Source: an uncultured Prevotellaceae bacterium
GTDB lineage: Bacteria; Bacteroidota; Bacteroidia; Bacteroidales; Muribaculaceae
Length of the DNA stretch: 64,000 bases
Reading direction: 5' to 3'
Assembly: GCA_900318065.1 (NCBI GenBank)
Contig: ONIY01000007.1
Coordinates: 27,197-91,196, forward strand
In this document: positions 25,510 through 57,371 of the stretch, piece after piece
Layout of the letters: every line of letters starts with the position of its first letter
How positions within the stretch are numbered: the stretch's first letter is position 1
Notes under the pieces: generated by a model
What the model saw: only the letters and a program-made list of their open reading frames with translations
What the model was told of the DNA's origin: nothing
Databases searched by the model: none
Translations under genes and position numbers: made by a program

Positions 25510-25559
25510 CTGACTGAAGAGTAAAAATCCCGCGCATCTTGCCAGATGAATCTATCACG

Positions 25560-26378
25560 ATGCAGTCGTTATTAACAGTAGTCACCTCTGCCGGAGGCCG
25601 TCAACCCAAAGCCATCATTGCCATTAACCGCAATAATGGCGAGATAAGGAGTGGCCAAATCTCTGGATTAAAAGACTATGACTATTATCTGTTGAAGTTC
25701 GGTAACACCAAATACAGCTCTGCAGAACTGGAGATGACCTATTATGAATTGGCCATTAAGGCAGGCATTCAAATGATGCCTTCTGAACTGTACACAGTTG
25801 ATGGCAACAACCATTTCATCACTAAGCGTTTTGACCGTTATGGTGAAAAGAAAATACACACTCAGACATTAGCTGCCATCTACCCTGATGCAGCAAGCTA
25901 TGAGCGGTTGATAGCAGTGTGCCGTAAACTCCACCTCCCCGAAGCCGACTGTCAAGAGGTGTTCAGAAGAATGGTCTTCAACATTCTTGCCAACAACACC
26001 GACGACCACAACAAGAACTTCTCGTTTATGATGAGCGAAGATGGCACTTGGCGTTTGGCGCCAGCCTACGACATCACATATATCATTGACACAGGTGGCT
26101 ACCTTCCAAATGAAGATCATTGCATGTATATCAGGACAAAACTGCGCAACACCACTCGCAATGACGTAATTCAGTTTGCCCGCGACAACGGCATACGCCG
26201 CCCAGATCCCATCATCAATGACGTTGTTGAGTCGTTGAAACAATTCCGCAGCATCGCACTAAAGTACGGTGTCTCAAAAGAATGTACTGGAAGGGTTGAG
26301 ACAACTATCATCGACAACCTGAAGGCATGGGGAGAATGGAAAGAAGAAACCAGCATGCCACAAACGACTATAAACTGA
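25560..26378 (+). CDS. HipA-like kinase, N-terminally truncated
   Basis: The frame of about 272 residues covers the kinase core of a HipA-type Ser/Thr kinase, toxins that phosphorylate aminoacyl-tRNA synthetases or related targets. Visible are SAGGRQPKAIIAI (nucleotide loop region), FITKRFDRYG, RMVFNILANNTDDHNKNFSF (catalytic Asp and Asn) and RLAPAYDITY (metal-binding Asp). Full HipA is about 410-440 residues; the N-terminal domain of about 130-150 residues is missing, and no HipB or HipS gene precedes it. A TTG at 25539 could extend the start by seven codons. It is probably a decayed toxin or a HipT-like short form without its partner. Confidence 0.7.
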   Translation: MQSLLTVVTSAGGRQPKAIIAINRNNGEIRSGQISGLKDYDYYLLKFGNTKYSSAELEMTYYELAIKAGIQMMPSELYTVDGNNHFITKRFDRYGEKKIHTQTLAAIYPDAASYERLIAVCRKLHLPEADCQEVFRRMVFNILANNTDDHNKNFSFMMSEDGTWRLAPAYDITYIIDTGGYLPNEDHCMYIRTKLRNTTRNDVIQFARDNGIRRPDPIINDVVESLKQFRSIALKYGVSKECTGRVETTIIDNLKAWGEWKEETSMPQTTIN

Positions 26379-26573
26379 CATTCCGTTTCCAATATACGTG
26401 TTGAGCAGGCCTACAACGAGAACTACCACCTTTTTGCCACCATCGACGGCAAAGATAGCAAGTACATCATAGGCAAGAACAAAGAAGCCTTCTCCTTGAT
26501 AGAAAAGACAGGCATTGCCAATCTCACCGCCGAGCAACTCACCTCGCTCGCCAAGACCTGTTTCAAGCTATAG
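26379..26573 (+). pseudogene. Open in-frame extension after the HipA stop codon
   Basis: Directly after the TGA at 26376-26378 the same frame stays open for 64 codons to TAG at 26571. It has protein-like composition (YHLFATIDGKDSKYIIGKNK, TAEQLTSLAKTCFKL). It has no start of its own. I cannot name the family. It may be the tail of the ancestral HipA-like protein cut off by a point mutation, or a fragment of another gene fused there. Confidence 0.4.
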
Positions 26574-26662
26574 GTGTCGTTATAGTGGACCTTAGGGAAA
26601 CTTTTCTTCAGAAAGTGTATAAAGCAAGGCAAATAGCAAAAACACAACTTTATAGTTGAAAA

Positions 26663-26695
26663 TTTTGCATATTTCAGCTTAATTTTATATTTTTG
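26663..26695 (+). promoter_or_regulatory. Promoter of the toxin-antitoxin/Wadjet operon
   Basis: TTTTG at 26663-26667 is followed after 20 bases by TATTTTTG at 26688-26695, an ideal Bacteroidetes promoter. The toxin ATG lies at 26717, so the leader is only about 15 bases. No other promoter-sized gap exists in the next 7.6 kb. Confidence 0.7.
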
Positions 26696-26716
26696 CAACT
26701 GAAAAACAAGAAAGAA

Positions 26717-27076
26717 ATGATTACAAAAGAAGAAGTTCAAAAATTTTTGAATCAGTTTCACGAGAAAACGAGAGTCTTTGGCATCATCTATCGAGATGAT
26801 CGAGGGAAGAACCAAAAGGCACTCGAAGAGCTTGAAATCGTCCCATCCTACAGAAGGGTGGTAATTGAAAACCTTATTGTTGAGGATTATGTACAAGGAC
26901 CAGTTGTGGATGAATTGAACAAACTCGGAGAAATGTGGGTCTTTGGCAAAGATATAAAAGGACGTGAAGTATATATCAAAATAATGTTAGGAGGTGTTGG
27001 ATGCCAAACAATCTGCATTTCATTCCATTTGGCAGAACGTCCATTGATATACCCGTTTAAAGTTGAGGAGGAATAA
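26717..27076 (+). CDS. MqsR-family-like toxin
   Basis: The 119-residue protein shares the pattern of MqsR ribonuclease toxins: a helical N-terminus, a segment VVIENLIVEDYVQGP, then MWVFGKDIKGREVYIKI and a final beta strand TICISFHLAERPL. In E. coli MqsR the matching parts are IWQDVYRP...GQDVYLKI and LIVSF. The start at 26717 is chosen over an ATG eight codons upstream because the upstream one overlaps the -7 promoter element. It lies two bases before the MqsA/SocA-like gene, the usual order for MqsRA. The family call rests on motif pattern only; a different RelE-like toxin is possible. Confidence 0.7.
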   Translation: MITKEEVQKFLNQFHEKTRVFGIIYRDDRGKNQKALEELEIVPSYRRVVIENLIVEDYVQGPVVDELNKLGEMWVFGKDIKGREVYIKIMLGGVGCQTICISFHLAERPLIYPFKVEEE

Positions 27077-27078
27077 AC

Positions 27079-28068
27079 ATGAAGAGTCCATTTACAGGTA
27101 AAGAGATGAAACGAGTGTACGAGAAACGTACATGGAACTTCCGTGGAGAACAGTATAAATATGAGCACATCTCATGGCTTTGTGAAGATTCTGGCGAACA
27201 GTTTACCGACGATGAGAGTGATACTGCTGGATTCATTCAGATAACCAATCAATATCGGGCAAAATATGGAATTCCATACACCGACGAGATTATTGCTGCA
27301 CGACAACGATATGGGATCAGTGCCGCCAAGATGTCACTGATTCTTGGCATTGGCATTAATCAATATCGCTTGTATGAGCAAGGAGAGGTGCCTAATGTAT
27401 CTAATGGCAGAATGATACGCTCTATTATGAATCCTAAAGTGATGCTAGAGATGGTGGAAAGCTCCAAAAACGAATTATCGGTGCCTGAATACGAGAAAAT
27501 CATCAGCAAGGTGAAAACCATTATTTCCAACAGGGTGTCTTACAAAATGGAACAGTATGAGGCGAGAAGAATTTTCAGCACCCTTCGTGGAGCCGACAAT
27601 GGTTATGCACAACTATCATTGAACAGGCTCAAGAACATTATGCTATATGTATTAAACAGGTGCAAGGACGTGTGGTGTACTAAAATGAACAAATTGTTGT
27701 TTTATATAGATTTTGTATCATACAGAGAACGTGGCATGGCCATGACAGGCCTATCTTATCGCGCCATAGACTTTGGACCAGTGCCAGAAAGATGGGAAAG
27801 AGTTTATAGCGAATTCCAAGAGGTTAGGCAAGAACTGTGTCAGGCAGGAGACTTCGTTGGTAGTGTGCTAATTGCGTCTAACGAACCCGACATAACCATG
27901 TTCACCGAGGCCGAACTAAATGTACTGGACACCATATGCAACAATTTGGGGTCAAAGACATCGCGAGAACTCTCACAACTGAGCCATGAAGAAAAGGCAT
28001 GGATTGACCACTATGAGAACCACGAGATAATACCTTTCAATGAGGCATTCTTCATAAAAGCCATTTAA
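27079..28068 (+). CDS. MqsA-like HTH antitoxin fused to a SocA/Panacea (DUF4065) domain
   Basis: The 329-residue product has three parts. Residues 1-50 resemble the MqsA/YgiT zinc ribbon (SPFTGKEM, WLCEDSGEQF), but most of the zinc cysteines are gone (SPFT in place of CPxC; CEDS in place of CxxC). Residues about 70-120 are the MqsA-type HTH (RQRYGISAAKMSLILGIG, YRLYEQGEVPN). Residues about 170-329 match the SocA-like DUF4065/Panacea domain (YVLNRCKDVWCTKMNKLLFY, MTGLSYRAIDFGPVPERW). It should neutralise the toxin before it and repress the shared promoter. It is followed after 19 bases by the first Wadjet gene. Confidence 0.82.
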   Translation: MKSPFTGKEMKRVYEKRTWNFRGEQYKYEHISWLCEDSGEQFTDDESDTAGFIQITNQYRAKYGIPYTDEIIAARQRYGISAAKMSLILGIGINQYRLYEQGEVPNVSNGRMIRSIMNPKVMLEMVESSKNELSVPEYEKIISKVKTIISNRVSYKMEQYEARRIFSTLRGADNGYAQLSLNRLKNIMLYVLNRCKDVWCTKMNKLLFYIDFVSYRERGMAMTGLSYRAIDFGPVPERWERVYSEFQEVRQELCQAGDFVGSVLIASNEPDITMFTEAELNVLDTICNNLGSKTSRELSQLSHEEKAWIDHYENHEIIPFNEAFFIKAI

Positions 28069-28087
28069 AACACTATATAGCGACGCC

Positions 28088-29287
28088 ATGGATGTACTGA
28101 AACATTTTAGGACAATTGAAGAAGTAACCAAGACTCTCTCAGGCGAGCACAGATTGCTAAGTGAGATGTTTGAGAAGCGAAAACTAATGAAGTTTCCGCA
28201 AGCACTGGCATTGGATTTCGTGGGTGGAAATGAAGCACGGCTCAGAAAACTTGTGGACTATGGTGTGCTAGTTGCAACAGATAATTCACTAGAGATTGAA
28301 AGTGACTATTTGAATTTCTTTGAAGAGATTCTAAATGTAAACGAACAAATCAGTGTACTAAGTGTCCAGGAATGCATTGACACACTAAAAGAAAATATAG
28401 GATATTTCCTACAAGAGACTAATGTCAATCGAAAAGCCAGATATCAAGACAGAGTTCGGTTGCTACTGAAGAAGACAGGTTTTAGAACACTAAAGAATGT
28501 TGTGGACTTGAAACGCAACATGGACAATACTTACAAGCAAGAACCCAACTACATCATCAAAAAGAAGAAACTACAGAATCTTGATGAGAAGAGTCACAGC
28601 ATTCGTGAAATGATACGCGAATGCGAGAAACTGATGGATAATGAACAAGCCTTCTTTCTCATGGCAAACGACCCTCACATGGCCCAAACATGCAGTGATG
28701 TGAGGCATGACTTTGTGGAAGCTTATCATGCTCTGATGGAAATAGACAGGCAGATAATAACTTACATCAATCAGATTGATCAGCAGAATCAACTCTTTAA
28801 GAAAATCAGAAAATTGAAATATCTACAGGACCAACTTCTCATCAAGACTGATACAAATATTATTCAAGTATTGGAAGAAAGAAATCCTCTATGGATGGAA
28901 TCTCGCCAATACAATAAAGTCCGGCTCTCTTTAGAAATGCTGAGAGAGAACGACCAAATAGTTCAGGTTCTAAGACGAATAGCTCAACGAAATGGCATAC
29001 AGAAAACAGCTAGGGCCGAAGCAGAACCCTTAACAGATGAGGACTTACAAGACCATGTTGGACAACTTGAGCAGATAGATCCCACAGAAGTGTGGAATGC
29101 TTTTGCTGCATCAAGTTATAATCTATTCGAATTCATACTTAGGTATAATTATAATAGCAAGCGTAACATAGAAGATCATGCTGCCCTTTTCTGCCAGTTA
29201 GTCACCTTGCATCCCGACGAATGTAGATTTACCAAAGAATATTCAACTTATAAAAACATCGAATACCCCATCATTTATGCGAAATAA
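28088..29287 (+). CDS. jetA: Wadjet JetA-like (kleisin-type) subunit
   Basis: The 399-residue protein lies first in a four-gene set whose third and fourth members are an SMC-like ATPase and a Toprim nuclease. It has a winged-helix-like N-terminus (KLMKFPQALALDFVGGNEAR, LVDYGVLVAT), a long helical middle (about 110-270) and a C-terminal winged-helix-like region (SSYNLFEFILRYNYN). This is the plan of MksF/JetA kleisins, which bridge the SMC heads. It is a Wadjet part by context and architecture; the sequence alone is diverged. It overlaps the next gene by 11 bases. Confidence 0.75.
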   Translation: MDVLKHFRTIEEVTKTLSGEHRLLSEMFEKRKLMKFPQALALDFVGGNEARLRKLVDYGVLVATDNSLEIESDYLNFFEEILNVNEQISVLSVQECIDTLKENIGYFLQETNVNRKARYQDRVRLLLKKTGFRTLKNVVDLKRNMDNTYKQEPNYIIKKKKLQNLDEKSHSIREMIRECEKLMDNEQAFFLMANDPHMAQTCSDVRHDFVEAYHALMEIDRQIITYINQIDQQNQLFKKIRKLKYLQDQLLIKTDTNIIQVLEERNPLWMESRQYNKVRLSLEMLRENDQIVQVLRRIAQRNGIQKTARAEAEPLTDEDLQDHVGQLEQIDPTEVWNAFAASSYNLFEFILRYNYNSKRNIEDHAALFCQLVTLHPDECRFTKEYSTYKNIEYPIIYAK

Positions 29288-29834
29288 CACTCAAATAATA
29301 TACGAGCGATTGAGCCGCGGAGAATTTCTCTCGGTTGATAGTGCAGATTCTTCAATCCGCCATTTGTATGAGGACATTGAAGAGAATTTGGATGATTATA
29401 CTCTCTATTTCAAGGAGATAGGTCTACAGTTGGAGACTGGCAACGGTTATTTCTATTTCTCACGAATTGGGGAAGGGAAACAGTCAATAGAGCAAAAGTT
29501 GGAGAGTTTTTCCAAATGGCTCGACTATCTAGACTTCTTGAAGTGCTATAATCAGTCATTTACAGCAGGCTATCAGTTCCGAAAGAGCCATCTGATAGAA
29601 CAAATTAGCCTAGACATAGAACTTAAAGAGAAAGCAAGTCATCTATACAAGAAATATGGTACTGGTTCCAATACTGAGATTGTGAATAAACTGCTTCAAG
29701 AGATGCAAAGCATGAAATTTGCCGAGTGCATCAACGATCAGGACGAGACATATAAAATCACTTCGGCATTCCGATATGTCGAGGAATTAGTGAACATGAT
29801 TCAAATAGCCAACGAAAATGAAATACCTGAATAA
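29277..29834 (+). CDS. jetB: Wadjet JetB-like (KITE/MksE-type) subunit
   Basis: The 185-residue protein has size and place of JetB/MksE (DUF4194-like). It reads as two winged-helix halves: LSRGEFLSVDSADSSIRHLY and YFKEIGLQLETGNGYFYFSR in the first, YRKYGTGSNTEIVNKLLQEM-like (KKYGTGSNTEIVNKLL) and YKITSAFRYVEELVNMIQ in the second. In Wadjet, JetB dimers bind the kleisin JetA. It overlaps jetA by 11 and jetC by 17 bases, which implies tight translational coupling and fixed stoichiometry. Confidence 0.78.
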   Translation: MRNNTQIIYERLSRGEFLSVDSADSSIRHLYEDIEENLDDYTLYFKEIGLQLETGNGYFYFSRIGEGKQSIEQKLESFSKWLDYLDFLKCYNQSFTAGYQFRKSHLIEQISLDIELKEKASHLYKKYGTGSNTEIVNKLLQEMQSMKFAECINDQDETYKITSAFRYVEELVNMIQIANENEIPE

Positions 29835-32800
29835 AATTATCTTTCTCAATAGTGCCAATATTTCACGCGCTGAGATTTCCCTGGATGGCAATGTGCATTT
29901 TACTGGGAACCAGGGTGTTGGCAAAAGCACCATACTGAGAGCATTGCTGTTTTTCTATAATGCTAACAAGCTTCACCTGGGTCTTCAATCAGGGCAAAAG
30001 TCTTTTGATGAATTCTACTTTCGCCACTCCAACTCTCACATCCTCTATGAGGTAATGCGAGATAATAGCGCTTATACAATATTGGTTAGCCGATACCAGG
30101 GACGCGCATCATGGCGTTTCATTGATGCGCCATATCATCAAGAATGGCTTATCGACGACAACAATCAGGTATTGAGCGACTGGATAAAGATACGTGAACG
30201 CATCGGCAAGAATGTGGCTGTGTCGGCACGAATAGATTCTGGAGTCATGTTCAAAGATATTATCTTCGGCAATACTCGTGATCATAAATACACGCGCTAT
30301 GCACTAGTACAGAGCACCAACTATCAAAATATCCCAAGAAGCATTCAGAATGTGTTCCTTAACACCAAACTAGACGCCGACTTTGTGAAGAACACAATCA
30401 TACAATCCATGGCCGATGAAGATTTGCCAATAGACCTTCAAAGCTATAGGCGACTGGTAACAAATTTTGAACGCGAATATGACGAGATAGACTGCTGGTT
30501 CCGACAAACACGCGAGGGCATTTTCCCTGTACGCCAACAAGCTTTGAAGATTGCCGAGCAGGGAAGAAAGGTTGTTGCGCTGAATCAGCAGTTGCAAGAT
30601 ATATGGCGAATGCTGAACCATGCTGTTGCCGAAAGTGAGAAAAAGATACCATTACTGGATGCCGAAGCCACCGAAATGAAAATGAGTATTGAGAAGGAGC
30701 AGCAACGTGAGGACAAAATCTCTGCCGAATATGAGAAAGAAAAAGACTCTCTCAATCAAGACCTCGGAGCAAAGAAAAGTAAACTTAGAGAGATATCATC
30801 AGCAAGAAAGAGATTTAGCTCTATTGACATTGAAGAAAAACTCGCACTTGCCAATCGTGAGGTTGCCATCAAGAATGAAAGAGCCAACAAACAGACCCTT
30901 TTGGATGGCCTGTTGGCAACACATAAGTCAATCGAGGAAAAATACAATCTAGCTAAAGGAAAACTGGAGAATGCTCGCCAGGCATTTGAGAACTCACAAA
31001 AAGAGGCTTTCAACAAGAAACAAGAAACCCTGCAACATGAGCGCTCGATACTGGAAACAAAACGCACCAAAGACCGTGACCTTATTATGAAAGAATTCAT
31101 TAACTGGCGACACGAGTCAGATGAGCGCTTACAGGCGTTGATGATTCAACAGCATCATGCCGAAAGTGCATTGAAGGACCTGCAGCGGTGGCATCCTAAG
31201 GCTAATGATATCAAAAAACTTATAGAACAACTGCAGCAGTTGGATGTAGCAGAAAAAGAGAATGCGGCAAAGCAGGAAGCAATAAAAAGCCAAATCGATC
31301 AGGTAACCGCCGAATATGAGATGAAAGAGGACGGCCTAAGACAAGCATCCCAACGAGAGCAGAAACGTCTTAATGATGAACGTGAACAATGCCAAAAAAA
31401 GATTGCCAAAATCAATGAAATATTGTCACATCTTGACGGCTCTCTTTATCAGTGGCTTTGTGAGAATGCCCATAATTGGGAAAACACAATAGGAAAGGTG
31501 GTTGACGAAGAGAGAATTCTGTATGCCGAAGGATTGGAACCACAATTGGATGCAGTATCTGGCAGTCTGTTTGGTGTAAGAATAAATTTAGATAATGTCG
31601 ACTCAACGCATCGCACACCCGACGAGTATAGAGCTGAAAAGAAAATATTGGAAGAAAGCCTGCAACAGATTAATCGCCAACTCACACAATTGCCAATTTC
31701 TCTTCAGGATTCGATATCGACATTGAGCAAGAAGTATTCGGCAAAGCTTAACCCGCTTCGTCAGAAAGCGACATCATTGAAAGTTGAGGAAGAACAGATT
31801 CCCAACAAACGGCAGGATATACAGAACAAGCAGCATAAACTAGAGATGGATGAGCTGGAACTTATTAAAAAGGAAAAAGATATTCGCAAACGTGCATTCA
31901 ATGAAGCACTATTAAAAGTGGAATCAGAAAAAGAAACTCGCAAGAAAAAAGAAGCCAAGAATAATAGGGATCTCAAAGAGCTGAATACTTCTTTCAACAA
32001 ATCATCAAAAGCTCTTGACGAACAATTAATCGCATTCCAAGAAACATTGAATTCAGAAACTTTTATTAAAAATAGAGAGTTTTATGACCAAATAGCCCAA
32101 CTTGAAGAACAACAGAAAGCAGAGCTAGCGGGCAAAAATATTAATGTGAACCTGCTAGAACAATACCGCAAAGCATTGAAGGAATTGTCGGCTCAGCTAA
32201 CAAAGATTGACGAAGAGCGTTCAATTGTTGTCGAGTATTGCAATGCAGAACAAAATCTTTTTGCTAAGGAACCTGACATAAAGAATGCCATCAATATCAT
32301 TGAGGGAAAACTCACCACATCTAGCCAACGTTATAAAGACAAACAAGAACGAATAGAGAATAAACGCAAGGAATTGGAGAAACGCCACAACGAAGTCATT
32401 AGGGAGTTGACACACAAGCGAGAAGGCCTCAGTCTTTATCATCAAATGGTGGAAAACGAGCATCTGATGCCAGATTCTTTTCTTTCAGACGACAAGACAA
32501 TAGAGACAAACCAGGATTGCCAGCAGCTGTTGAGCCTTCTGAGAGGAACAGTTAATCAGAAGCGTGAAACAATAGACACACTAAAAGGCACAGTTGTTAA
32601 TTTCAATCGCAACTTTAAACCTCAGAATGCGTTCCATTTTAATACCATGCCTGTAACAGACAATGATTATTTGCAGATTGCTGTTGATTTGCAGGACTTT
32701 ATGGACAACAACAAAATCGAAGAGTTCCGCAGCCGCACTAGTGAACATTATAAGGACATCTTAGGGCGCATCTCTTCTGAAGTTGGCGCACTGGTAAAAC

Positions 32801-33468
32801 GCAAGTCGGATGTGGATGGGGTAATACAAGATATCAATCGTGACTTTGTAGAGAAAAACTTTGTTGGAGTTATCAAGAGCATTGAGTTAAGAGTAAATGA
32901 ATCGTCCGACAGACTCATGCAGTTACTCATGTCTATCCATGATTATACTGCCGATAATGCTCTTTCTATTGGACAACTCAATCTTTTCTCTAGCGACAAT
33001 CACAATGAGGTGAACCGAAAGGTAGTGGACTACCTGAAGAGCCTTTCTCGACAGTTGCAAAATGAGCTCAATCGTGCAACTGTTTCGCTTGGAGACACTT
33101 TCCGCTTGCAGTTCCGTGTGAAGGAAAATGACAACGACACCAACTGGGTAGAGCGTATAAACAACGTTGGCTCTGATGGTACTGATATTCTCGTAAAAGC
33201 AATGGTCAACATCATGCTCATCAATGTATTCAAGAAAAAAGCCTCTAAAAAGAGCGGTGATTTCATTGTACATTGCATGATGGACGAGATAGGACGATTG
33301 CATCCTAGCAATATTAAGGGAATCTTGCAGTTTGCTAATTCTCGCAACATATATCTCATCAACAGTTCACCAGTGTCTTACAATCCATATGATTATAGAT
33401 ACACCTACCTTCTTGCCAAGAAGGGAGTGAAGACAGTAGTAGAGAAGTTGATGAAAACAATCAAATAA
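29818..33468 (+). CDS. jetC: Wadjet JetC-like SMC ATPase
   Basis: The 1216-residue SMC-like protein has Walker A G30-NQGVGKST near the N-terminus (HFTGNQGVGKSTILRAL). Long coiled-coil arms run from about 260 to 1000, around a globular hinge-like part near 540-600 (LDGSLYQWLCENAHNWENTI). The C-terminal head has a diverged signature NVGSDGTDILVKAM near 1116 and Walker B FIVHCMMDEIG with Asp-Glu at about 1156-1157. It is the motor of the Wadjet loop-extrusion complex that detects circular plasmid DNA (known of the family). The DEIGRLHP ending and the SDGTD signature match COG4913/MksB-like ATPases rather than SbcC. Confidence 0.88.
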   Translation: MKYLNKIIFLNSANISRAEISLDGNVHFTGNQGVGKSTILRALLFFYNANKLHLGLQSGQKSFDEFYFRHSNSHILYEVMRDNSAYTILVSRYQGRASWRFIDAPYHQEWLIDDNNQVLSDWIKIRERIGKNVAVSARIDSGVMFKDIIFGNTRDHKYTRYALVQSTNYQNIPRSIQNVFLNTKLDADFVKNTIIQSMADEDLPIDLQSYRRLVTNFEREYDEIDCWFRQTREGIFPVRQQALKIAEQGRKVVALNQQLQDIWRMLNHAVAESEKKIPLLDAEATEMKMSIEKEQQREDKISAEYEKEKDSLNQDLGAKKSKLREISSARKRFSSIDIEEKLALANREVAIKNERANKQTLLDGLLATHKSIEEKYNLAKGKLENARQAFENSQKEAFNKKQETLQHERSILETKRTKDRDLIMKEFINWRHESDERLQALMIQQHHAESALKDLQRWHPKANDIKKLIEQLQQLDVAEKENAAKQEAIKSQIDQVTAEYEMKEDGLRQASQREQKRLNDEREQCQKKIAKINEILSHLDGSLYQWLCENAHNWENTIGKVVDEERILYAEGLEPQLDAVSGSLFGVRINLDNVDSTHRTPDEYRAEKKILEESLQQINRQLTQLPISLQDSISTLSKKYSAKLNPLRQKATSLKVEEEQIPNKRQDIQNKQHKLEMDELELIKKEKDIRKRAFNEALLKVESEKETRKKKEAKNNRDLKELNTSFNKSSKALDEQLIAFQETLNSETFIKNREFYDQIAQLEEQQKAELAGKNINVNLLEQYRKALKELSAQLTKIDEERSIVVEYCNAEQNLFAKEPDIKNAINIIEGKLTTSSQRYKDKQERIENKRKELEKRHNEVIRELTHKREGLSLYHQMVENEHLMPDSFLSDDKTIETNQDCQQLLSLLRGTVNQKRETIDTLKGTVVNFNRNFKPQNAFHFNTMPVTDNDYLQIAVDLQDFMDNNKIEEFRSRTSEHYKDILGRISSEVGALVKRKSDVDGVIQDINRDFVEKNFVGVIKSIELRVNESSDRLMQLLMSIHDYTADNALSIGQLNLFSSDNHNEVNRKVVDYLKSLSRQLQNELNRATVSLGDTFRLQFRVKENDNDTNWVERINNVGSDGTDILVKAMVNIMLINVFKKKASKKSGDFIVHCMMDEIGRLHPSNIKGILQFANSRNIYLINSSPVSYNPYDYRYTYLLAKKGVKTVVEKLMKTIK

Positions 33469-33477
33469 GCATTATCT

Positions 33478-34323
33478 ATGGCAATAACAGTATCGTTACA
33501 AGCATTGTTGGAAGGAAAGCAAGTTGCCAGTTCAAAGTTGAGCAGCAAATTGGTCGATGAACTCATGACAGAGGGGTTACTTATAGTCGATGCTCACGGC
33601 TCCAAGAAATCATACCGTGCTCGCAACATCGAGGCCCTGCAGCAATATCTTATGGATAAAGACGAAAGCTATCGCGTGTTGGAAGTCAATTCCGCAAGTT
33701 CTCGCGCTTCGATGGCAACAAAAACGGGCAATTCCAAGTTAGTAACAGTTCGTTCATGCCCTGGGTTCCCCGTGAATAGTTATGAACCTATTGAGTGCCA
33801 ATTGGACAACGAGCCATTTTCGGTAAATCCCATGAAAGGATGTTTCCTTTTTGTTACTGAATGGGAGAAGTTTACAATTCCTAATGACATCACTGTCATA
33901 GGCATTGAGAATATGGAGAACTTCAGAATGATTCGCCAAACGAGAGAGTTCATCGAAAAATACCTGCGAGCTCATGGATTACCAATAAAAGCGCTTTTCG
34001 TATCCAGATATCCGCAATCTACTGACCTCCGAAAATGGCTAACGTCGATTCCAAATCATTATCTTCACTTTGGAGATTTCGATTTGGCAGGAATTCATAT
34101 ATTTCTGTCGGAGTTTCAGCAGTATCTAGGCAGCAGTCATTCTTCATTTCTTATACCCGAAGACATTGCTTCTCGTTTAAAATTTGGGTCTAGCAAACGA
34201 TTTAATGAACAGTATAACCGCTATAATGGTATCTCATCAGACATTCCTGAGCTTCAAGAGTTGATAAATCTCATCATGCATTATCGAAAAGGATATGACC
34301 AAGAAGGATATATAAATCTCTAA
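33478..34323 (+). CDS. jetD: Wadjet JetD-like Toprim nuclease
   Basis: The 281-residue protein is the nuclease of the system. Residues 1-70 form a winged-helix-like part (LLEGKQVASSKLSSKLVDEL). The C-terminal half is a Toprim domain of the DUF2220 kind: Glu144 in VIGIENMENF and the D-x-D pair D200/D202 in HFGDFDLAGIHIF, related to topoisomerase VI A subunits. In Wadjet this subunit cuts circular plasmids after the SMC complex has extruded them. It is clearly shorter than the best-known JetD proteins (close to 400 residues), so it is a compact variant. It starts nine bases after jetC and ends the operon, convergent with mnmE. Confidence 0.85.
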   Translation: MAITVSLQALLEGKQVASSKLSSKLVDELMTEGLLIVDAHGSKKSYRARNIEALQQYLMDKDESYRVLEVNSASSRASMATKTGNSKLVTVRSCPGFPVNSYEPIECQLDNEPFSVNPMKGCFLFVTEWEKFTIPNDITVIGIENMENFRMIRQTREFIEKYLRAHGLPIKALFVSRYPQSTDLRKWLTSIPNHYLHFGDFDLAGIHIFLSEFQQYLGSSHSSFLIPEDIASRLKFGSSKRFNEQYNRYNGISSDIPELQELINLIMHYRKGYDQEGYINL

Positions 34324-35792: not shown

Positions 35793-35812
35793 ACGGGGGA
35801 CCGCTTTGAATC

Positions 35813-35923
35813 CTTGATCCTTGATCCCCGACCTTCGATCCTCGACCTTCGATCCTCGATCCCCGATCCTCGACCCTCAATCCTCGACCCTCAATCCTCG
35901 ATCCTCGACCCTCAATCCTCGAG
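35813..35923. repeat. Heptanucleotide array, GATCCTC/GACCTTC type
   Basis: Fifteen 7-bp units in strict phase run from 35813 to 35917, built on CTCGATC, CTCGACC, TTCGATC and CTCAATC, with a partial last unit to 35923. The array fills most of the 198-bp gap between mnmE and the nuclease gene. Confidence 0.9.
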
Positions 35924-43329: not shown

Positions 43330-43455
43330 TTCTACGTTCCACCTTCTACGTTTAGCGCGCCGCAGGATTCGTTCCACCTTCTACGTTTCGCGTTCCACGT
43401 TCTACATTCCACGTTTCGCGTTCCACTTTCCACCTTCCGCGCGCCGCAGGCGCTA
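43330..43455. repeat. Heptanucleotide array, TTCTACG/TTCCACC type
   Basis: Eighteen 7-bp units in phase, mostly TTCTACG, TTCCACC, TTCCACG and TTTCGCG. A CGCCGCA-GG interruption recurs twice in heptad register. The array ends nine bases before the stop of the dehydratase gene. Confidence 0.85.
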
Positions 43456-53202: not shown

Positions 53203-54315
53203 ATGAGCAACGAACGAAAAATACGCATAGGAATCACCCATGGCGACACTAACGGAGTGGGCTATGAGGTTATTATGAAATGCTTCACCAGCAACGATAT
53301 TCTCGACTTGTGTGTACCCGTGATCTATGGGTCGAGCAAGATTTTCAACTACCACAAGAAAGCACTGGGAATTACCACCACCCAAATCAACACCACCCGC
53401 AACGCTGGCTACATCAAGGAAAACGCCGTCAACCTGGTTGAGGTGATCCATGATGAGGTGAAGATAGAGCTGGGACAGAACAGCAAGATTGCCGGCAAGG
53501 CGGCTTTCACAGCCCTCGAGGCAGCAGTCGCCGACCTCAAGAAAGGCGTCATCGACGTGCTCGTCACCGCTCCCATCAACAAAGACAACATCCACAGCGA
53601 GGAGTTCTCGTTCCCTGGCCACACCGAGTATCTCGAGGCCAGCTTGGGCGACGGCGACAAGGCGCTCATGATCATGTGCAGCGACGTGATTCGCGTGGCG
53701 CTGGCAACAACCCACATCCCCGTAGCGAAAATCGCCCAATCCATTTCTAAGGAAATGCTGGTAGAGAAGCTGCGCATCTTCAACCGCTCGCTGCAGTATG
53801 ACTTCAACGTGCAGAAACCCCGCATCGCCGTGCTGGGCCTCAACCCCCACTGTGGCGACAACGGTCTGCTGGGCAACGAGGAGAAAGAGATTATCGAGCC
53901 AGCCATTCAAGAGGCCAACGAGAACCAGATCCTGTGCTTTGGCCCCTATGCCGCCGACGGTTTCTTTGGCAGCAACCAGTACCGCCGCTTTGACGGTGTG
54001 CTTGCCATGTATCACGACCAGGGCCTCACGCCGTTCAAGACCATCTCGATGGACGAGGGCGTGAACGTTACTGCCGGCCTGCCCATCGTGCGCACCAGCC
54101 CCGACCACGGCACAGGCTACGACATTGCCGGCCAGGGCATTGCCAGCGAGAAGTCGATGCGCAACGCCATCTTCATGGCTATCGACATCCTGCGCAACCG
54201 CCGCCGCTGGGACGAGATGTACCAGAACCCACTCAAGAAGCAGTTCTTCGACAAGGGCAAGGACAACGTAGTCCTCGACCTCACCAAGATTGAAGACGAA
54301 GAGACGCTTGGGTAA
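53203..54315 (+). CDS. pdxA: 4-hydroxythreonine-4-phosphate dehydrogenase PdxA
   Basis: The 370-residue enzyme oxidises 4-phosphohydroxy-L-threonine in the DXP-dependent pyridoxal phosphate pathway. Marks are ITHGDTNGVGYEV near the start, VTAPINKDNIH, FPGHTEYLEA, LNPHCGDNGLLG, AMYHDQGLTPFK (metal-binding His/Asp) and VRTSPDHGTGYDIAG. Length is slightly above that of E. coli PdxA. It stands between two repeat-filled gaps. Confidence 0.95.
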   Translation: MSNERKIRIGITHGDTNGVGYEVIMKCFTSNDILDLCVPVIYGSSKIFNYHKKALGITTTQINTTRNAGYIKENAVNLVEVIHDEVKIELGQNSKIAGKAAFTALEAAVADLKKGVIDVLVTAPINKDNIHSEEFSFPGHTEYLEASLGDGDKALMIMCSDVIRVALATTHIPVAKIAQSISKEMLVEKLRIFNRSLQYDFNVQKPRIAVLGLNPHCGDNGLLGNEEKEIIEPAIQEANENQILCFGPYAADGFFGSNQYRRFDGVLAMYHDQGLTPFKTISMDEGVNVTAGLPIVRTSPDHGTGYDIAGQGIASEKSMRNAIFMAIDILRNRRRWDEMYQNPLKKQFFDKGKDNVVLDLTKIEDEETLG

Positions 54316-54585
54316 AGGACAAGGGACAAAGGACGAAGAACAAAGGACGAAGGACAAAGGACTAAGGACTAAGGACGAAGGACAAAGGACGAAGGACAAA
54401 GGACGAAGGACGAAGGACGAAGGACAAAGGACAAAGGACAAAGGACAAAGGACGAAGGACGAAGGACGAAGTCCTGGAAAGCCCGGAAAGCCCGGATAAT
54501 CCGGAAGTCCCGGAAGTCCTAGAAAGCCCGGAAAACTGACAACTGATAACTGACTACTGATAACTGACTACTGATAACTGATATA
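54314..54585. repeat. Composite module: GGACRAA heptads, 9-mers, ACTGATA heptads
   Basis: Twenty-two 7-bp units (AAAGGAC, GAAGGAC and variants) run from 54314 to 54467 in exact phase. Six 9-bp units of GGAAAGCCC / GGAAGTCCC type follow at 54476-54529. ACTGATA/ACTGACT heptads then run from about 54537 to the ATG of the next gene. Order and placement match 16676-16815. Confidence 0.92.
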
Positions 54586-56254: not shown

Positions 56255-57205
56255 ATGAATTTCAAAGAATTAAAACAACAATATAACCAATCGCTCAAGT
56301 CGATGGACACCGAGGAGCACATCGACCTGTGGTTTTACCGTCCACTGGGCTTTGCCTGGGCAACACTCTTTGCAAAACTTGGCATCTCGCCAAACGTTGT
56401 CACCATTGCATCCATCTTCCTGGGTGTGGGAGGTGGCATTCTGCTCTACTTTGGGGCACAGCCACTCATCTGGCTTAACTACCTGGGCATCTTCCTAATC
56501 ATATGGGCCAACACCTACGACAGCGCCGATGGACAGCTGGCGCGATTGACTAAGCAATATTCACAGATTGGGCGCATCCTCGACGGCGTGAGCGGCGACC
56601 TGTGGTTCTTTGCCATCTACTTTGCTCTCGTGTTCCGCGAGTTGCACTTTGGCGACGCGTGGCTGAAAGACTTTTTCATGCAGTCGCAAAACCACTGGAT
56701 CATCTGGACCATGGCGATTGCCGCCGGCGTGAGCCACGCACTGCAATGCGCTATGGCCGACTATTACCGCCAGTTCCACCTCTACTTCCTCAAGGGAGAG
56801 AGCGGCAGCGAGCTCGAGAGCACCAGCAAGCTCGACGAGCAAATCAAGCAGTCGCATGGCTTCAAGCGCATCACCATGTTCTTCTACCGCCAGTACACTG
56901 CCAACCAGGAGCGCCTCACCCCTGCCCTGCAGCGCCTGCGCCGCGAGCTCAAGAACCAGTATGGCAACGAGATGCCACCACAGCAGTTCCGTGACGACTT
57001 CCGCAAGCTGAGTCTGCCACTGATGAAGTACACCAACATGCTCACCTTCAATACTCGCACCATTGCCATGTTCATCTCGGTGATCATCGCCATTCCCTGG
57101 CTCTACTTCGCCTTTGAGCTCATCGTGCTCAACATCATGCTCGTCTACATGATTTGGCGCCACGAGACATTCTGCAAGAAACTAACAAGAGAGATAAAGG
57201 GGTAA
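56255..57205 (+). CDS. CDP-alcohol phosphatidyltransferase, probable phosphatidylinositol-phosphate synthase
   Basis: The 316-residue membrane enzyme carries the complete CDP-alcohol phosphatidyltransferase motif D-x2-D-G-x2-A-R-x8-G-x3-D-x3-D in YDSADGQLARLTKQY and IGRILDGVSGD. Membrane helices are at about 40-60, 65-90, 110-130, 145-165 and 265-295. It joins an alcohol phosphate (here likely inositol phosphate) to a CDP-activated lipid, or the reverse. Homologous Bacteroides clusters contain MIPS, a CDP-alcohol transferase and a HAD phosphatase that make phosphatidylinositol and inositol ceramides (known of the pathway). Its stop codon TAA is the first part of a TAAGTGT repeat array. Confidence 0.88.
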   Translation: MNFKELKQQYNQSLKSMDTEEHIDLWFYRPLGFAWATLFAKLGISPNVVTIASIFLGVGGGILLYFGAQPLIWLNYLGIFLIIWANTYDSADGQLARLTKQYSQIGRILDGVSGDLWFFAIYFALVFRELHFGDAWLKDFFMQSQNHWIIWTMAIAAGVSHALQCAMADYYRQFHLYFLKGESGSELESTSKLDEQIKQSHGFKRITMFFYRQYTANQERLTPALQRLRRELKNQYGNEMPPQQFRDDFRKLSLPLMKYTNMLTFNTRTIAMFISVIIAIPWLYFAFELIVLNIMLVYMIWRHETFCKKLTREIKG

Positions 57206-57259
57206 GTGTTAAGTGTTAAGTGTTAAGTGTTAAGTGTTAAGTTTTAAGTGTTAAGTTTT
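57203..57259. repeat. Heptanucleotide array, TAAGTGT type
   Basis: Eight 7-bp units of TAAGTGT/TAAGTTT in exact phase. The first unit includes the stop codon of the phosphatidyltransferase gene. It joins the next array at 57260 without a gap. Confidence 0.92.
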
Positions 57260-57371
57260 AAAGGACGAAGGACGAAGGACAAAGGACGAAGGACAAAGGA
57301 CGAAGGACAAAGCACGAAGGACGAAGGACGAAGGACAAAGGACGAAGGACAAAGGACAAAGGACGAAGGAC
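57260..57371. repeat. Heptanucleotide array, AAAGGAC/GAAGGAC type
   Basis: Sixteen 7-bp units of the same family as at 54314. It is followed directly by a 10-bp array. Confidence 0.92.

Follow-up and report, generated by a model that had tools for sequence, protein, structure and literature searches.

In a 64,000-nucleotide stretch of contig ONIY01000007.1 (hereafter the window), which belongs to a draft Bacteroidales genome (GCA_900318065.1; 2.99 Mb in 97 contigs), a toxin-antitoxin (TA) pair is directly followed by four genes of the Wadjet/MksBEFG type, jetABCD. We consider it likely, with a probability of about 0.75, that this arrangement is an end-to-end join of two independent, known modules in this lineage, with the jet genes read from the TA promoter. 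A join of two modules is favored because the homology edges fall at gene boundaries, because the modules lie apart in relatives and because the operator of the cassette is conserved; that Jet operons elsewhere abut other genes too points to modules that are independent. The first module would be a complete autoregulated TA cassette, composed of an operator, a promoter, an MqsR-like RNase and an MqsA-Panacea antitoxin. The second would be a complete, divergent Wadjet/MksBEFG operon. The six open reading frames (ORFs) are intact and all on the same strand. Gaps of 2 and 19 bases come first, then overlaps of 11 and 17 bases, then a gap of 9 bases, so that the ORF coordinates agree with a preliminary description of this DNA, in which the six genes were said to overlap or to lie within 19 bases of each other.

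Homology edges at the junction

The window was compared by blastn with ten TA loci and four Jet loci. Homology to the TA loci reached position 28070, 2 bases past the antitoxin stop, in L129, L131, L133 and L098, and ended before 28070 in the other six. The block shared with L129, L131 and L133 runs from 26631-26641 to 28070, and that shared with L098 is in two pieces. Homology to the Jet loci started at 28088, the ATG of jetA, in L060, L061 and L062, which share the block 28088-34313; the fourth locus was cut by a contig end. An assembly artefact, in which the contig joins two unrelated fragments, might be suspected in a draft of 97 contigs with a junction that the search did not find in any other genome. 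However, the join falls exactly between a stop and a start codon, with both sides on the same strand and similarly low in G+C, and random misjoins would rarely give such a join. We regard this explanation as very improbable.

Distribution of the two modules

Larger stretches of DNA were available for 31 of the 41 places with JetD outside this genome, and in 25 of these jetA had a usable start with DNA upstream of it (less than 900 bases in L074, L075 and L088). The TA pair preceded the jet genes in none of these 25 related Jet loci. Of 458 toxin loci, the best 80 were kept; 74 of these reached at least 300 bases beyond the antitoxin, and 50 reached at least 5,000 bases. Jet genes stood directly behind the pair in none of the 74. 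A search with the junction DNA returned one of 101 same-genus genomes, namely its own, while genome G555 matched the jetA side of the query only; this search can miss diverged relatives, as it did with G309, in which a Jet operon was found by protein. In a sample of 295 genomes of the order, JetD was found in 15 and the toxin in 16, and both only in the genome studied here. In a sample of 397 genomes of the family, JetD was found in 26, the toxin in 40 and both in seven, the other six of which carry them on different contigs.

A conserved six-gene unit was rejected on the counts from the order and family samples, the Jet loci, the TA loci and the same-genus genomes. The linked MqsRA/Panacea-Wadjet unit of the preliminary description is thus not borne out, and the six-gene order was found, among the genomes searched, in its own genome alone. 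In the literature, we found no paper naming both DUF4065 and Wadjet; in their accessible text, a Weizmannia genome survey mentions Panacea, antitoxin and Wadjet together, and work on triclosan resistance mentions MqsR and Wadjet together.

Operator, promoter and transcription into the jet genes

The operator-like palindrome CAACTTTATAGTTG lies 5 bases ahead of the TTTG element of the promoter (Table 1), inside the upstream stretch to which homology extends in the closest TA loci. The pattern CAACYTTANRGTTG, allowing at most one mismatch, has a single copy in the whole window, at this position. It was sought in the 120 bases upstream of related toxins, after 11 identical upstream stretches had been dropped. 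Of the 106 distinct stretches, 49 had it with at most one mismatch, versus 83 of 10,600 random stretches, and 75 had it with at most two mismatches, versus 180 of 10,600; the random stretches came from the same loci and may contain true operator sites. Relatives L123 and L125 carry AACCTTAAGGTT exactly, the sequence bound by Escherichia coli MqsA at csgD; in the available text of the same source, the E. coli MqsA operator is given as AACCT-N3-AGGTT and the csgD site as AACCT TA AGGTT (PMC4894380). The operator site is recurrent among related pairs without being universal, and a recurrent MqsA-type operator can now be added for the MqsR-PanA pairs of Bacteroidales. Autorepression of the promoter by the antitoxin is a well-supported prediction from homology and operator conservation. 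An earlier suggestion of MqsA-type self-repression agrees with the helix-turn-helix (HTH) region of the protein and with the MqsA-like palindrome beside the promoter.

Table 1 Features of the TA cassette and the jet genes in the window.
Feature	Position	Strand	Basis
Operator-like palindrome CAACTTTATAGTTG, one mismatched pair	26645..26658		Recurrence in relatives
Bacteroidetes-type promoter, TTTG (26664-26667), 20 bases, TAttTTTG (26688-26695)	26664..26695	+	Consensus match
Toxin, MqsR-like, 119 aa	26717..27076	+	15 of 20 relatives match PF15723
Antitoxin/regulator, 329 aa, MqsA-like N domain, HTH and Panacea (DUF4065)	27079..28068	+	
Junction, 19 bases	28069..28087		Between antitoxin stop and jetA ATG
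JetA / MksF-like subunit, 399 aa	28088..29287	+	Position and conservation
JetB / MksE, 185 aa	29277..29834	+	PF21980, 5.6e-38
JetC / MksB SMC ATPase, 1216 aa	29818..33468	+	PF12128 (DUF3584), 6.2e-57
JetD / MksG-like nuclease, short form, 281 aa	33478..34323	+	DUF7281, 6.1e-7; PADLOC JetD1, 1.3e-5

The promoter fits what we take to be the Bacteroidetes consensus. It is the only full match to TTG-N18-22-TAnnTTTG on the plus strand between 26000 and 34500, which confirms, for the full Bacteroidetes-type consensus, that a single canonical promoter is visible and stands before the toxin. Shuffled versions of 27079-34323 gave 0.26 matches on average. Two sites speak against its exclusivity: a match to a relaxed pattern at 30240, inside jetC, and a sigma-70-like site at 28004-28031 (TTGACC-16-GATAAT, 10/12), which follows the E. 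coli consensus and not the Bacteroidetes one.

The sigma-70-like site could be a weak jet promoter inside the antitoxin gene; TA transcripts would then stop before jet and the modules would have no functional link. A full Bacteroidetes-type match before jetA is missing in 18 of the 25 relatives, so that jet promoters can be non-consensus. However, the region has 19 sigma-70-like sites against a shuffle mean of 19.4, and Bacteroidetes use a promoter consensus other than that of E. coli sigma-70. No terminator-like hairpin was found in 28069-28188, the 120 bases after the antitoxin. This last point counts for little, since only 12 of 92 TA cassettes had such a hairpin in the corresponding 120 bases, versus 102 of 1,840 random stretches, and the test discriminates poorly. 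Overall, we think that the absence of a functional link is unlikely.

Under the reading of two joined modules, jetABCD are probably transcribed from the TA promoter in this genome. This readthrough is predicted because neither a consensus promoter nor a second operator copy was seen before jetA and because no terminator-like site was found between the modules. Among the 25 related jetA genes, by comparison, a separate match to TTG-N18-22-TAnnTTTG within 300 bases occurs in seven; as the pair is beside none of the 25, this too runs counter to the linked unit proposed earlier.

Proposed mechanism and its alternatives

The antitoxin would bind the toxin and, through its HTH, the palindrome beside the promoter, as homology and operator conservation suggest. 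With jetABCD read from the same promoter, the antitoxin level would tune the dose of Wadjet. Judged by homology only, loop extrusion would fall to JetABC and the cleavage of small circular DNA to JetD, in line with what the accessible text of PMC10586767 describes for Wadjet systems that have been studied. Of the previous proposal that the antitoxin represses the Wadjet operon, the part that stands is the control expected from readthrough in this genome; the part that falls is the dedicated linked unit. If the readthrough is shown to matter, it would offer a simple route to stress- or invasion-linked control of a defence operon.

Alternatively, the MqsA-Panacea protein could be a dedicated regulator of Wadjet: invasion would destabilise the antitoxin, freeing the toxin and raising Wadjet. 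The single promoter, the single operator copy, the 19-base gap and the lack of a terminator-like site in the 120 bases past the antitoxin are in keeping with this, and a sensor role has been hypothesised for the Panacea domain (PMC10440598, in the text available). BrxR/CapW-type repressors head other defence operons, and repressor-headed ones are known (PMC9122601, likewise). However, the arrangement was not found in the 25 Jet loci, the 74 informative TA loci and the other 100 same-genus genomes, and both operator and promoter are kept in TA cassettes without Jet. Dedicated regulation therefore appears quite unlikely. The join does not look like a conserved system and is probably a one-off; regulatory coupling may be present here as a by-product, and the comparative data show no sign of selection for it.

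Several observations weigh against the reading of two independent modules. In L201, a JetA-like fragment lies 3.5 kb downstream of the TA pair, at a contig end and with several ORFs between. The seven genomes of the family sample with both JetD and the toxin are more than the 2.6 that the frequencies of the two genes would predict, an excess that may reflect defence-rich genomes. The palindrome is lacking in 57 of the 106 upstream stretches at one mismatch or fewer and in 31 at two or fewer, and it is absent, at up to two mismatches, from the same-genus cassettes L100-L102 and L104. Finally, the low G+C content of both modules (39.8% in the TA cassette and 38-41% in the jet genes) would also fit arrival as one pre-joined unit. 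Around them, G+C is 52.8% upstream, 45.7% in the hipA gene, 58.5% in mnmE and 54.7% further on; in other loci, it is 38.9-41.4% for TA cassettes (eight loci) and 42.5-49.8% for Jet operons (nine loci). G+C content favours neither a joint nor a separate arrival.

Identity of the toxin and the antitoxin

The antitoxin matched PF13274 (1.4e-19), TIGR03830 (1.3e-15, just under the cut-off) and PF15731 (3.7e-5, under the cut-off), and its N-terminal region aligned with E. coli MqsA over 115 columns (hhalign, E = 1.3e-6). From these matches, its naming as an MqsA-like protein with a Panacea part can be considered secure. Four cysteines of E. coli MqsA bind zinc; in the alignment, read by eye, one of the four is kept in the N domain of the antitoxin.

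The toxin start was set by homology at ATG 26717, whereas the mechanical ORF begins at TTG 26693. The PF15723 matches in its family (E ≤ 0.1, best 1.7e-4) do not extend to the window's own protein, and direct profile comparison with E. coli MqsR was weak (hhalign, E = 0.026, probability 1.9%). The toxin can thus be called MqsR-like as a weak but plausible assignment. Tyr86, invariant in 42 sequences, is a putative catalytic residue. A search of the PDB with the toxin profile gave no match, and a viral collection contained two toxin fragments. Homologues of both genes occurred together in 38 of 38 loci in one set and 78 of 80 in another, the latter being the TA loci described above; the toxin is the usual partner of the MqsA-Panacea antitoxin. 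The MqsR:MqsA-Panacea pair is a kind already described and validated: an MqsR with an antitoxin of zinc-binding domain, HTH and Panacea was validated in Bacillus fungorum, where the N domain does the neutralisation (PMC10440598, as far as its accessible text goes).

Since the antitoxin is the adjacent protein and no Wadjet product, a guard or addiction role, in which the toxin would punish the loss of Wadjet like CreTA does for CRISPR-Cas, is hardly credible. It has physical linkage alone in its favour, and the linkage is not conserved in the samples searched; in CreTA, by the available text of PMC9458426, the defence effector itself represses the toxin. This reading was rejected, and with it the earlier idea of a toxin guarding against Wadjet loss.

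The jet genes as a divergent Wadjet/MksBEFG set

The four genes follow the order jetA-B-C-D of Wadjet/MksBEFG. JetB (MksE) and JetC (DUF3584) can be assigned securely from their profile matches. In JetC, G30..K36 and D1156-E1157, which we take to be Walker A and Walker B, are invariant in 17 sequences. JetA, the candidate kleisin of the set, is conserved in an alignment of 18 sequences, and the window's protein matched nothing in Pfam or PADLOC; no profile was common to the 18 relatives, with no PADLOC family and scattered, weak single-member Pfam matches. For JetD, the assignment is supported by matches of the PADLOC JetD1 model to 16 of 21 members, and E144, D200 and D202, invariant in 21 sequences, would be the TOPRIM-type nuclease residues. 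DUF7281 was found in 20 of the 21 and JetD_C (E ≤ 0.01) in only four, the window protein giving 0.041 for JetD_C and not showing the DUF3322 plus DUF2220 (JetD_C) layout.

On the window, PADLOC gave weak matches for JetC and JetD and none for JetA or JetB. No JetD relative was found in the viral collection. In the PDB, JetC alone and the JetD profile gave no match, JetD alone gave one weak and unrelated match, and the JetC profile gave 11 coiled-coil matches, including one Smc chain (E = 0.0024). Taken together, proteins 3 to 6 are assigned to a divergent Wadjet/MksBEFG set, which adds a Bacteroidota form barely recognised by PADLOC.

In a separate locus, L243 (Parabacteroides distasonis NZ_OY725754.1, 42127-57711), a JetC-like gene has two hypothetical genes ahead of it and no JetD behind it; a NAD synthase gene stands there on the other strand. 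Its neighbours are housekeeping genes, though the record is labelled a plasmid. L243 may represent a nuclease-free Mks condensin.

Neighbours of the two modules

ORFs and starts in the locus scans were called mechanically, and small gaps depend on the start codon chosen. In other loci, the TA pair is found on its own or next to genes of other kinds. At least 400 bases of DNA past the pair were available for 102 TA loci (not all independent, the same genome being present twice as in L091/L163); in 21 of them, the first ORF to reach 70 aa is on the same strand and starts within 30 bases, and none of the 21 is jet. In L129, a 247-aa protein begins 12 bases past the cassette, and in L131 a protein of the same family overlaps the cassette by 4 bases and is followed after about 330 bases by a cytosine methyltransferase gene and an ATPase gene with a weak restriction-enzyme match. 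This third gene (L129:2524-3264 and L131:5309-6043, about 245 aa), found in two of the closest cassettes, has no Pfam or PADLOC match.

A 136-aa conserved protein is encoded 3-15 bases past the pair in L100-L104, L156, L158, L160, L161, L167 and L169, loci that include same-genus genomes and, in some cases, the same genome twice. Its L100 copy has no Pfam or PADLOC match. It is a possible third component of the pair. Behind the pair in L094 (about 2838 onward) come SbcD/SbcC-like genes, recognised by eye from their sequence, on the same strand and with about 110 bases to the probable ATG; this is again an SMC-type ATPase with a nuclease.

One may ask whether MqsR-PanA cassettes are portable, self-repressed promoter heads that put defence operons under antitoxin control, as with Wadjet here, the third gene and restriction-modification-like genes in L131, and the SbcCD-like genes in L094. 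If so, loss of the antitoxin would free the toxin and raise the defence together. We hold this view to be rather doubtful.

On the Jet side, four of the 25 loci have an ORF of 40 aa or more on the same strand that ends within 25 bases of jetA; a PDC-S27 gene and a type IV restriction gene are among the four. Genes upstream of jetA include a PDC-S27 ATPase in L066 (12-base gap), a type IV restriction gene in L078 (9-base gap), a PDC-S41 helicase in L062 and a Schlafen-AlbA_2 protein in L076, among others. In three of the 25 Jet loci (L076 by Pfam, L082 and L085 by eye), a Schlafen/AlbA_2-like protein is encoded about 100-140 bases ahead of jetA and is a possible recurrent neighbour.

Genomic context in the window

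A HipA_C kinase-like gene (25539-26378; PF07804, 1.5e-44) lies upstream of the cassette; no HipB or N-terminal partner was evident beside it in the ORF list, and no profile search for one was made. An open frame without a start of its own (26379-26572) ends just before the TA cassette and reads like the tail of some protein, perhaps a remnant. Arrays of 7-base tandem repeats with differing units occur at 35810-35922, 43370-43438, 54314-54471 and 57203-57371. The mnmE-adjacent region is variable among the same-genus loci examined, and an empty site is therefore not readable.

Comparison with known systems

Defence-type genes with a toxin domain nearby or fused to them are known, including an SMC-HicA fusion (PMC10865869, in its accessible text). 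The present case indicates that a tight single-promoter arrangement of TA and defence genes does not have to be a system and can be an end-to-end join of portable modules. The comparisons below follow the available text of each source. The cassette resembles MqsR:PanA of Bacillus fungorum (PMC10440598), which also pairs an MqsR toxin with an antitoxin of MqsA-type N domain, HTH and Panacea; it differs in the single zinc cysteine kept of four, in a toxin only weakly MqsR-like and in the Jet operon that follows. It shares with E. coli mqsRA (PMC4894380) the toxin-first order and a palindrome of the AAC-T / A-GTT type near the promoter, whereas E. coli MqsA has 131 aa and no Panacea part, and the half sites differ at one or two positions. 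The jet genes match MksBEFG, the Wadjet type I of Corynebacterium glutamicum (PMC10123090), in the order F-E-B-G, in the MksE and SMC ATPase families and in the TOPRIM-type acidic nuclease residues. They differ from it in the short JetD, with DUF7281 in place of DUF3322 and DUF2220, in a JetA without a profile match and in PADLOC seeing only JetC and JetD, weakly. As in BrxR-headed BREX islands (PMC9122601), a repressor gene, an operator and a promoter head a defence operon; BrxR, however, is a WYL-domain protein recurring beside defence systems, whereas the pair in the window is an autonomous TA cassette.

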